A stretch of 64,000 nt of DNA from Acidobacteriota bacterium (lineage in GTDB: Bacteria > Acidobacteriota > Blastocatellia > Pyrinomonadales > Pyrinomonadaceae). Location of the stretch: NCBI GenBank assembly GCA_025463135.1, contig JAOAPY010000030.1:248001-312000 (forward strand), read 5' to 3'. The stretch's first letter is position 1, and each line of letters opens with the position of its first letter. This document shows, in pieces, positions 47,805-51,631 of the stretch. Made by a program: the position numbers and the translations under genes. Below the pieces are notes generated by a model. It was not told the DNA's origin, did no database searches, and was given only the letters and a program-made list of their open reading frames with translations.

Positions 47805-48680
47805 ATGAGCTCCTTAAAGACTTCGATAAAACGTCCACGCATTGGATTTCACGCGCCGATCAAAGGCGGTCTGCATGAAGCTTTGGTCATCGCCAAAGAG
47901 ACCGGTTGCCAGACTGTGCAAATCTTCTCTCGCAATCCGCGCGGGTGGATGGCCAAGCCGCTGACAAAAGAAAGCGTCGAACTGTTTCGCAAGACTCAAC
48001 GAGAGACGAAGATCTCACCGGTAGTAATCCACTGCAACTATCTTGTGAATCTCGCCGCGGCAGACGAAGCACTGCTGGCAAAATCGCGCGCGTCATTTCG
48101 CGAGGAGGTTGAGCGGGCGCTGCTGCTGGGTGTTGATTATCTCGTGGTCCACCCAGGCAGCGCGCGCGGCGCCTGCGAAGCCGAGGGGATCGCTATCTGC
48201 GCCAAAAGCCTGAAGCTTGCATGCAAAGGTTTAAAGCTTGGTGCCTTCCGCATCCTGCTTGAAAATACTGCCGGCCAGGGCGAATGTATCGGTCACCGCT
48301 TCGAACATCTTCGTGCCATCATGGATGCCTGTCCAAAACTTCCACTCGGCGTTTGTTTTGATACAGCGCATGCTTTCACTGCCGGTTACGACATCCGCGA
48401 AGAGGATGGCTTGGAAGTGACCATTCAGTGGCTGAACCGGACCGTGGGCACAAAGAACGTTCGTGCAATTCACTTCAACGATTCGCGCGCACCTTACAAC
48501 TCGCGCGTCGATCGTCATTGGCATATAGGCGAAGGACATATCGGACTCGACGCGCTGCGGCGTGTGGCGCAGCATCCAAAGCTGGCGCACGCGGCTTTCA
48601 TTCTCGAAACTCCTTACGACGATCCCCGCGCTGATCTGAAGAACCTGCAAACGCTACGGTCGTTTATCAACCGATCCTAG
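47805..48680 (+). CDS. nfo: Deoxyribonuclease IV (AP endonuclease)
   Basis: 291 residues. TIM-barrel three-zinc enzyme that cuts DNA at abasic sites in base excision repair. Metal ligands in order: VVIHCNYLVN, YLVVHPGSARG, ILLENTAGQG, VCFDTAHAFTAGYD, AIHFNDSR, DRHWHIGEGHIG and FILETPYDDP. Length normal. No ribosome-binding site is seen before ATG 47805, which follows a big hairpin closely. Confidence 0.96.
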   Translation: MSSLKTSIKRPRIGFHAPIKGGLHEALVIAKETGCQTVQIFSRNPRGWMAKPLTKESVELFRKTQRETKISPVVIHCNYLVNLAAADEALLAKSRASFREEVERALLLGVDYLVVHPGSARGACEAEGIAICAKSLKLACKGLKLGAFRILLENTAGQGECIGHRFEHLRAIMDACPKLPLGVCFDTAHAFTAGYDIREEDGLEVTIQWLNRTVGTKNVRAIHFNDSRAPYNSRVDRHWHIGEGHIGLDALRRVAQHPKLAHAAFILETPYDDPRADLKNLQTLRSFINRS

Positions 48681-48732
48681 AATCCTGATAGCGCAAAGTT
48701 GATGCAAATGAGTCAAGTTTTTCGCTCTTTCT

Positions 48733-48808
48733 TTGTGGCTTTGCGTCTTTGCGGAAAATACTTTGCCGCCATTAAAGAGCCTCCCGCAAAGACGCAAAGC
48801 TCGCAAAG
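48733..48808. repeat. Inverted repeat with perfect 16-bp arms
   Basis: CTTTGCGTCTTTGCGG (48739-48754) and CCGCAAAGACGCAAAG (48784-48799), loop 29 bases. It sits just before the leuS promoter, between nfo and leuS. Confidence 0.75.
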
Positions 48809-48834
48809 GAATCTTCTCGAGGTACCGCAGAAAG

Positions 48835-48864
48835 TTGGACAGTTTTCATCATCTTGGCTAGAAT
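48835..48864 (+). promoter_or_regulatory. Promoter of the leuS transcript
   Basis: TTGGAC (48835-48840), 18-base spacer, TAGAAT (48859-48864). The same -10 TAGAAT is used at lexA. The expected start point (about 48871) coincides with the ATG of the leucine-rich leader ORF at 48872, giving a leader of about 200 bases before leuS. Confidence 0.75.
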
Positions 48865-48871
48865 GCTTCGC

Positions 48872-48940
48872 ATGACGACCGCTGGACACAAGTTACTTGC
48901 CAAACTCCTCCTAACGGTGCCGCTGCTGCACCGCGCCTAA
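48872..48940 (+). CDS. Putative leucine-rich leader peptide of leuS
   Basis: A 22-codon ORF, MTTAGHKLLAKLLLTVPLLH plus two residues, ending TAA at 48938. Seven of 22 residues are Leu, in runs LL, LLL and LL, encoded by TTA, CTT, CTC, CTC, CTA, CTG and CTG. It begins at or within a base or two of the predicted transcription start, so it may be read as a leaderless ORF. It precedes leuS by 132 bases. Bases 48919-48929 (GCCGCT-g-CTGC), inside the Leu-rich part, can pair with GCAGAGCGGC (48955-48964), and the latter can instead pair with CCGCTGCG near 49024. This is the set-up of an attenuator; regulation is inferred. Confidence 0.5.
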   Translation: MTTAGHKLLAKLLLTVPLLHRA

Positions 48941-49072
48941 TAACCGCGCCAAACGCAGAGCGGCGAAAATAACAAATTCAGCAATTGGGATGCGCCCGCG
49001 GAAGTGCTTTAATTGAGCTTTGCCCGCTGCGCCCTTGATTTATCAAGTGCTCTAAGTGGAACAGGACGAACG

Positions 49073-51631
49073 ATGGACGAAAAATATTTTCCCGAAGCGA
49101 TAGAAAAGAAATGGCAACAGCGCTGGCAAGAGACGCGCGCTTTTGAGGTCAAGTCGGAAGATGCGCGGCCAAAATTTTATTGTCTCGAGATGTTGCCTTA
49201 CCCCTCGGGCTATCTGCACATGGGCCATGTGCGCAACTACGCCATCGGCGATGCGCTCTCCTGGTACAAACGCCTGCAGGGTTTCAATGTGCTGCACCCG
49301 ATCGGTTGGGACAGCTTTGGCCAGCCCGCGGAACAGGCCGCGATCAAGCGTGGTGTGAACCCACGCGACTGGACCGAAGAGAACATCAAGCACATGAGCG
49401 GGCAAATGCACCGGTTGGGCATCAGTTATGACTGGTCCCGCGAGATTGCCGCGCACCGGCCCGACTATTACAAATGGGACCAGTGGTTTTTTCTCAAGAT
49501 GCTGGAGCGCGGTTTGGCTTACAAGAAAACTTCCGCGGTCAACTGGTGTCCCAAAGAAAAGACCGTCCTGTCCAATGAACAGTCTTCGGGCGGCGTCTGC
49601 TGGCGTTGTGGCACGGCTGTCGAAAAAAGAGATTTGGAGCAGTGGTTCCTGCGCATCACCGACTACGCGGAGCAACTCGTGAATGACATGGCCGAGATCG
49701 AAGCCAACTGGCCCGAGAAGGTCCTGAAGCGGCAGCGCGATTGGGTTGGTCGTAGTGAAGGCGCCAACATCGACTTTGCCGTCAAAGACAGCGATAAGAA
49801 AATTCGTGTCTTCACCACGCGCATCGATACAATCTATGGCGCCACTGCAATCGTGTTGGCCGCGGAACATCCACTGGTGGCAGAACTTCTCGAAAGCTCG
49901 GCGCTGAAAGCGGACGTGCAGGCGTTTGCGGAGAAAGTGAAAGCCGCAAGGGCTGCCAGGCAAGACCTCACCGTGGTCGAGGAAAAGGAAGGTTTGAATA
50001 CGGGCGCTCTGGCCATCAATCCATTTAGCGGTGAAAGCGTTCCCATCTGGGTAGCGAATTATGTGCTGATGGACTATGGGGCCGGCGCCGTGATGAGTGT
50101 GCCCGCGCATGACGAGCGAGACTTTGAATTCGCGCAAAAATATACCTTGCCGATCAGACAAGTGATTGCACCGGCGTCACATTCGCAGGCCCAGATTGAA
50201 CCCGTTACCGGGGCAATGGACCAGTCCCGTGAAATGCATCAGGCCTTTACTGACTACGGCATATTGATTAACAGCGGTGAATGGGGCGGGAAACTTTCAG
50301 AAGTTGCCATTCGAGAGATGACTGCTTACGCCGCGGAGAAGGGATTCGGTGCGGCGGCGGTAACTTATCGAATTCGAGACTGGGGCATCTCGCGCCAGCG
50401 ATTCTGGGGCGCGCCTATCCCGGTGATCTACTGCGACGACTGTGGCATGGTGCCGGTGCCGATGGACCAGCTGCCGGTTGTCTTGCCTGAGACTGCCGAG
50501 TTTACAGGCACAGGTGAATCGCCGCTCGCCAGCGTGGCGGAGTTTGTTAACACTACTTGTCCCAAGTGCCGGCGGCCCGCGCGGCGCGAAACCGATACGA
50601 TGGACACCTTTGTTGATTCGTCCTGGTATTTCTTTCGCTATTGCGATCCGCGTAACGATAAGGCGGCATTCGATCCGCGGCTGGCTGCGCAATGGACGCC
50701 GGTGGATCAATACATCGGCGGCGACTCGCACGCTGTCATGCATTTAATTTACACACGGTTCTGGACCAAGGTCATGCGCGACCTGGGTTTGGTTTCTTTT
50801 AATGAGCCGGTTAAGAGACTGCTCACTCAGGGTATGGTCACCAATCGAGTCGAGGGCACTGACGAATGGAAGGCGATGTCCAAGAGTCTGGGCAATGGCG
50901 TCGATCCCGATGAGATGATTGCGGCGTATGGCGCCGACGCGGCGCGGCTGTTTGTCCTGTTCGCGGCTCCTATCGAAAATGAATTGCGGTGGTCCGAGGC
51001 GGGTGTCGAAGGCGCCATCAGGTTCCTGCGTAGAGCATACACCATGGTCTGGCGTTGGCATGAACGTCTCTCTGATCCGGCCCAGCATCGAGTTGGGTTG
51101 GCGAACGATGATTTCAGCGCGGGCGCGCGCCAGCTGCGACGTAAAACGCACCAGACAATCGCGCGCATCACAAAGGACTTCGATCAGCTGCATTTGAACA
51201 CCTCGGTGGCCCAGCTGATGGAGTTGTTCAATGCGCTGATGGATTTCAATGCTGAGCCGTCGACGGCTACTGATCCGGACGTTTTTGCGGTGCGCGAAGC
51301 GCTGAATGCACTGGTCCTAATGCTGACTCCCTTTGCTCCACACGCGGCCGAGGAGATGTGGGAAAGTCTGGGTCACCAGAGCGGCTTACTGGGCGGCGAG
51401 GCGCGCTGGCCGGTCGCCGATCCTGAACTCGCTTTGCAAGAGGAGTTGGAGATTCCCGTTCAAGTAAATGGCAAAGTTCGCTCGCGGGTCATGGCGGCGT
51501 TGGATGTGACTGATGATGAATTGAGGGCGGCTGCGCTGGCGGACGAAAAAGTGCTGGGCTCTATTGCGGGTCACGAGGTCATAAAGGTGATTGTGGTGCC
51601 GCAGCGACTTGTCAATGTAGTTGTACGGTAG
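49073..51631 (+). CDS. leuS: Leucyl-tRNA synthetase
   Basis: 852 residues from ATG 49073 (DEKYFPEAIEKKWQQRW is the usual N-terminus; a TTG at 49013 would add 20 odd residues). Class I synthetase charging tRNA-Leu. HIGH motif as HMGH in YPSGYLHMGHVRNY, KMSKS as AMSKS in KAMSKSLGNGVDP, CP1 editing domain (about 225-420) with the AVMSVPAHDERD site, and tRNA-binding helical domain plus C-terminal part (IPVQVNGKVRSR). Complete and typical. Expression probably depends on the leader at 48872. Confidence 0.98.
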   Translation: MDEKYFPEAIEKKWQQRWQETRAFEVKSEDARPKFYCLEMLPYPSGYLHMGHVRNYAIGDALSWYKRLQGFNVLHPIGWDSFGQPAEQAAIKRGVNPRDWTEENIKHMSGQMHRLGISYDWSREIAAHRPDYYKWDQWFFLKMLERGLAYKKTSAVNWCPKEKTVLSNEQSSGGVCWRCGTAVEKRDLEQWFLRITDYAEQLVNDMAEIEANWPEKVLKRQRDWVGRSEGANIDFAVKDSDKKIRVFTTRIDTIYGATAIVLAAEHPLVAELLESSALKADVQAFAEKVKAARAARQDLTVVEEKEGLNTGALAINPFSGESVPIWVANYVLMDYGAGAVMSVPAHDERDFEFAQKYTLPIRQVIAPASHSQAQIEPVTGAMDQSREMHQAFTDYGILINSGEWGGKLSEVAIREMTAYAAEKGFGAAAVTYRIRDWGISRQRFWGAPIPVIYCDDCGMVPVPMDQLPVVLPETAEFTGTGESPLASVAEFVNTTCPKCRRPARRETDTMDTFVDSSWYFFRYCDPRNDKAAFDPRLAAQWTPVDQYIGGDSHAVMHLIYTRFWTKVMRDLGLVSFNEPVKRLLTQGMVTNRVEGTDEWKAMSKSLGNGVDPDEMIAAYGADAARLFVLFAAPIENELRWSEAGVEGAIRFLRRAYTMVWRWHERLSDPAQHRVGLANDDFSAGARQLRRKTHQTIARITKDFDQLHLNTSVAQLMELFNALMDFNAEPSTATDPDVFAVREALNALVLMLTPFAPHAAEEMWESLGHQSGLLGGEARWPVADPELALQEELEIPVQVNGKVRSRVMAALDVTDDELRAAALADEKVLGSIAGHEVIKVIVVPQRLVNVVVR

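Follow-up and report, generated by a model that had tools for sequence, protein, structure and literature searches.

Attenuators upstream of leuS, the gene for leucyl-tRNA synthetase, were predicted in Streptomyces avermitilis and S. coelicolor in 2005 (PMC1262725). There, as in the Blastocatellia element described here, a leader ORF with Leu codons lies upstream of leuS; however, the Streptomyces leaders have antiterminator and poly-U terminator hairpins, whereas the Blastocatellia element, from another phylum, combines one conserved hairpin with a mostly leaderless ORF and lacks a U tract (PMC1262725). The actinobacterial LEU element, in which a run of Leu codons pairs with the Shine-Dalgarno box of leuA (PMC1262725), is similar in that a leader Leu run is able to pair with a downstream Shine-Dalgarno sequence, although in Blastocatellia this may apply to long forms of the leader only; it differs in lying upstream of leuA rather than leuS, and no pseudoknot was found in the Blastocatellia element. 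In mycobacteria, leaderless polycysteine ORFs serve as attenuators (Canestrari et al., 2020, as cited in PMC13236596 and PMC9031893). As those citing papers present them, they resemble the predicted leader of the Blastocatellia element in being short leaderless ORFs with many cognate codons, located upstream of related genes, whereas the Blastocatellia element involves leucine, leuS, a conserved hairpin at a fixed distance, and the Acidobacteriota.

Likenesses are also found in the ribosome-mediated attenuators of the enteric trp, his, and leu operons, with their control codons for a chosen tRNA isoacceptor and a hairpin beside those codons, but the Blastocatellia element is without conserved mutually exclusive helices or an intrinsic terminator. 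The choice of control codons in attenuators is biased according to isoacceptor charging (PMC1183508). T-box leaders of aminoacyl-tRNA synthetase genes concern the same gene class and the same signal; in contrast, an Rfam scan of 17 Blastocatellia loci returned weak chance matches alone and no relevant family, T-box included, and sensing is proposed to proceed through a translated ORF.

The initial annotation of this locus had considered leader-peptide control of leuS to be new for an acidobacterium. The literature searched contained no leuS leader peptide in Acidobacteriota, but as a type of regulation leuS leader attenuators were anticipated by the two Streptomyces predictions. The element, absent from Rfam, is a candidate amino-acid sensor for a dominant soil phylum in which little RNA regulation is known. 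It points to a use of leaderless leader peptides beyond mycobacteria, and its fixed codon-to-hairpin geometry would make a simple system for relating ribosome position to gene expression without a terminator/antiterminator pair.

The leader region in the window

The locus lies within what we call the window, the whole 64,000-nucleotide stretch of DNA analyzed; the nearest named relatives of its genome are Pyrinomonadaceae, in the class Blastocatellia. The features are as follows.

48835..48864, + strand: promoter P1, TTGGAC (48835-48840), 18 nt, TAGAAT (48859-48864); from sequence, with relatives' promoters alike
48872..48940, + strand: leader ORF MTTAGHKLLAKLLLTVPLLHRA followed by a stop codon, predicted leaderless; from sequence, with the frame conserved among relatives
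48905..48914, + strand: Leu box CTC CTC CTA A, counterpart of the conserved CTC NNY CTT A; from comparison with relatives
48919..48964, + strand: conserved hairpin at a fixed distance from the Leu box; from covariation and a hairpin probability of 0.92-0.99 in full-leader folds
48966..48995, + strand: linker 3' of the hairpin, A/C-rich, G-poor, without a U tract; from class-wide composition
49050..49072, + strand: leuS initiation region, with AGGA at 49063-49066; predicted to pair with the Leu box in long-form relatives
49073..51631, + strand: leuS, leucyl-tRNA synthetase, the proposed regulated gene, with its ATG at 49073

The promoter TTGGAC-18-TAGAAT named in the initial annotation is present at these positions, and the same promoter precedes most relatives' leaders, with a -35 that is usually TTGGAC or CTAGAC, an 18-nt spacer, and then TANNNT. 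The claimed ORF of 22 codons was likewise found intact, with its ATG at 48872, 7 nt past the -10 box, and with seven Leu codons including TTA and CTA, each of which makes up about 2% of the Leu codons in the genes of the window. The functionally fixed Leu codons are the CTC CTC CTA of the Leu box (48905-48913), immediately 5' of the hairpin, and the CTG CTG pair of the same leader lies within the hairpin arm, outside the box. The hairpin stem is formed by GCCGCT (48919-48924) and AGCGGC (48959-48964), and a further segment, CTGC (48926-48929) against GCAG (48955-48958), lengthens it. The gene upstream of the leader, a 291-codon ORF (47805-48680), we take to be endonuclease IV-like. Just upstream of the element, at about 48700-48820, lies a dispersed repeat with CGCAAAGACGCAAAG-like arms and many genomic copies of 82-88% identity, which is separate from the leader element.

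Distribution of the leader module

A leuS match was found in every one of the 162 Blastocatellia genomes searched. From class genomes, named contigs, and fetched stretches, 194 distinct leuS upstream regions were oriented, 143 of which were counted as Blastocatellia, and the alignment of relatives that the initial annotation had proposed recovers the short ORF, the Leu box, and the hairpin together in about 100 of these 143 (92 loci used in the promoter and hairpin counts, and nine recognized later). The comparison thus lends strong support to the proposed leader peptide, to its putative leaderless start, and to its predicted control of leuS. In the short form the ORF stops just past the Leu box (for example MTFYRKNLALR, MKFYQKTLALI, and MHFCRQTLALT, each followed by a stop); in the long form, to which the window belongs, the stop lies further downstream inside the hairpin region (KLLLTVPLLRRA followed by a stop, and similar peptides). 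Three loci of family f2 (L022, L023, L213) carry divergent, leaderless, Leu-rich leaders.

A covariance model of the element gave one strong match per genome (E <= 2.7e-5) in 59 genomes, 58 of them directly upstream of leuS and the remaining one at a contig edge; recovery of leuS loci is here partly by construction, and the informative point is that no second strong copy occurs elsewhere. Outside the class, nothing convincing was found among 396 genomes across the phylum (best E 6e-4). The module is absent from several Blastocatellia genomes, including members of the same genera as carriers and a subgroup of genus g9. Two genomes (G022, locus L007; G131, locus L131) represent natural leader loss, with leuS following, after a short gap, the preceding gene, whose counterpart in the window is the 291-codon ORF. 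At one further locus (L014), a one-base shift in the Leu box (CTCTTGCCTTA) leaves just the second Leu codon in frame.

The Leu box and the conserved hairpin

Among 65 covariance-model matches, the first codon of the Leu box is CTC in 63 and CTT in two, and the third is CTT in all 65, such that the first and third codons are CTC or CTT in 130 of 130 cases; 49 of the 65 loci trained the model, and these counts therefore describe conservation rather than test it. The second codon is NNY, with a pyrimidine at its third position in 64/65. An A follows the third codon in 65/65, with TAG preferred (57/65). CTC and CTT are the codon pair decoded by tRNA-Leu(GAG), and together they account for 31% of the Leu codons in the window genes. 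The window and its sister genus have CTA as the third box codon.

The hairpin is conserved as a structure. Across 49 short-form sequences, 90.5% of the cells of the nine-pair structure are paired, and the covariation score is 0.327; shuffled alignments score 0.177 (none of 500 reached the observed value), and sliding the partners gives no more than 0.134. RNAalifold recovers 10 pairs, seven of which have compensatory changes. Arm variants include GCCAC/GUGGC, GCCGC/GCGGC, GCUAC/GUAGC, and GCAGC/GCUGC. Folding of full leaders gives a mean hairpin probability of 0.99 for short forms and 0.92 for long forms. The distance between the Leu box and the hairpin arm shows zero gaps in the 49 aligned sequences, and ORF length, loop length, and stop position all vary; four loci that have lost the TAG (L047, L161, L186, L219), as well as all long forms, retain both box and hairpin.

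The initial annotation had proposed two alternative helices. Of these, the pairing of 48919-48929 with 48955-48964 is the predicted and conserved hairpin. For the alternative, between 48955-48964 and about 49024-49031, the window sequence allows a helix of -14.1 kcal/mol, but this helix is not conserved: across relatives, pairing of the 3' hairpin arm with downstream sequence is no better than in permuted controls (permutation p = 0.15 for long and 0.76 for short forms), and a conserved, mutually exclusive antiterminator helix is not supported.

Predicted translation of the leader and predicted start of its RNA

As the covariance model was built on the box and hairpin alone, its 65 matches provide an ORF-blind test of the reading frame. 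An open in-frame ATG lies within 30 codons in 63 of the 65, against four and four in the two shifted frames, and in the remaining two an in-frame GTG occupies the position expected for the start. Because the loci used for training had originally been identified through their ORF, the fully independent matches are three that fall outside that set (L161, L186, L219); the ORF is present in all three. In pairs of leaders with similar prefixes (the pairs are not phylogenetically independent), first codon positions account for 134 of the differences between the start and the box, second positions for 192, and third positions for 266, a third-position bias as expected of translated sequence under weak constraint. 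We infer that the leader ORF is translated by the ribosome.

In the promoter predictions, the start codon lies 6-7 nt past the best -10 hexamer at 41 of 92 loci. As 6-7 nt is the usual distance between a -10 box and the start of transcription, the leader ORF at such loci is read as leaderless. Further loci, chiefly of the long form or of family f6, show a predicted 5' UTR of about 20-47 nt before the leader; leaderless initiation is therefore not universal.

Proposed mechanism and alternatives

The arrangement by which leader-peptide regulation is recognized, a short ORF with cognate control codons ahead of the cognate gene, is found here. We consider it likely, with a probability of roughly 0.78 on the sequence comparisons, that the element acts in cis, through its leader peptide, to regulate leuS, with ribosome stalling at the Leu codons reporting the charging of Leu-tRNA. 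The predicted ORF, its frame, codon choice, hairpin, fixed spacing, and tie to leuS are established by comparison; the stalling itself and the direction of its effect on leuS are what we infer. Transcription from P1 would begin on the start codon of the leader or shortly upstream of it, and the short ORF would then be translated. If the ribosome footprint extends about 12-13 nt downstream of the first base of the A-site codon, as assumed here, the leading edge of a ribosome whose A site holds the first CTC would lie roughly at the hairpin base, and a ribosome held up further on, at CTT or the stop codon, would melt that base; with this geometry, the hairpin would report ribosome position. Stalling would signal low Leu-tRNA charging and raise leuS expression, a sign of effect that is drawn from physiology.

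The output that we favor is premature termination of the P1 transcript when the ribosome does not stall, probably dependent on a factor (Rho); in long-form lineages such as that of the window, masking of the leuS Shine-Dalgarno region by the Leu box would be an added step. The 30-nt stretch after the hairpin is A/C-rich and G-poor throughout the class, a composition compatible with, though far from proof of, Rho loading. The element may be a minimal attenuator with one hairpin. A leaderless mini-ORF would carry two tRNA-Leu(GAG) codons so placed that the edge of a stalled ribosome meets the base of the conserved hairpin; whether that hairpin forms or melts would then determine Rho access or RNA stability, and through these the expression of leuS, with neither an antiterminator nor a U tract involved. 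This specific version is tentative, and we rate it somewhat below even chances.

The same architecture of leader ORF, Leu codons, hairpin, and cognate gene could also belong to a classical transcription attenuator, in which the conserved or an alternative hairpin would serve as intrinsic terminator and an antiterminator would form when the ribosome stalls. One locus of the divergent family f2 fits such a model, with a hairpin followed by AATAATTTTT (L023, the single exception to the missing U tract). However, in f1/f6 loci the T content of the 12 nt that follow the hairpin does not exceed background (3.06 T per 12 nt against 3.91 in short forms, 2.91 against 2.74 in long forms), in agreement with the initial annotation, which had noted the absence of a classic terminator with a T run, and a canonical intrinsic terminator is not supported. 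The same genomes do carry terminator-like hairpins with U tracts, near ileS and valS, and the antiterminator pairing, as described above, is not conserved. We regard classical attenuation as improbable for this element. The two-state switch of the initial annotation is not supported, as one of its two helices alone is conserved and no U-tract terminator comes after it; the term "attenuator" is thus unproven in its classical sense.

A purely translational attenuation, in which the Leu box, as an anti-Shine-Dalgarno sequence, masks the leuS start until ribosome stalling exposes it, draws its support from the long forms. In 34 of these, the Leu box pairs better with the -35..0 region of the cognate leuS than with those of other species (permutation p = 0.004, which is moderate after correction, as six target stretches were tested in two groups). 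The pairing also exceeds that with shuffled targets, peaks at -35..0, and is absent in stretches further upstream; strong cases are L002, L015, L027, L038, and L118. But the 54 short forms, several without an obvious Shine-Dalgarno sequence, show no such pairing with the leuS start region (p = 0.58), which rules out sequestration as a general mechanism for them; the long-range partners of their Leu box scatter, with none consistent. In the window, the Leu box and the leuS initiation region pair only weakly (-9.7 kcal/mol), and the hairpin would be left unexplained. As the whole mechanism this seems unlikely.

Some constraints on the element go beyond codons—the pyrimidine of the second box codon, the A after CTT, and the preference for TAG—and would suit an RNA structure recognized by a protein, for instance in feedback by LeuRS on the mRNA that encodes it, in which case the ORF would be incidental. 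Against this, every model match has an in-frame start, divergence is biased to third positions, and stop codons move while the frame and Leu codons stay. We think this reading very improbable.

A second promoter-like site and related leaders

In some short-form species, a second promoter-like site lies between the hairpin and leuS, and P1 may supply only part of the leuS mRNA where it exists. This site remains in leader-less genomes (L052, L056, L198); because it persists where the leader has been lost, the leader together with P1 resembles a module that was added. At six loci (L050, L055, L165, L181, L196, L200), a palindrome, GGATA-N10-TATCC, occupies the constant-length spacer of a promoter-like site between the leader hairpin and leuS. 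A pattern match was obtained in 20 of the 194 leuS upstream regions, and the palindrome is possibly an operator.

No equivalent architecture was found before ileS, valS, metG, leuA-family, or pheS genes in four genomes; the leuA-family upstream regions, found in three of the four, had no such leader. A candidate isoleucine leader, MRFDFNITGIITNGDFAP, lies upstream of ileS in one genome (G005, locus L277, reverse strand), with a hairpin and its T run between this leader and ileS.
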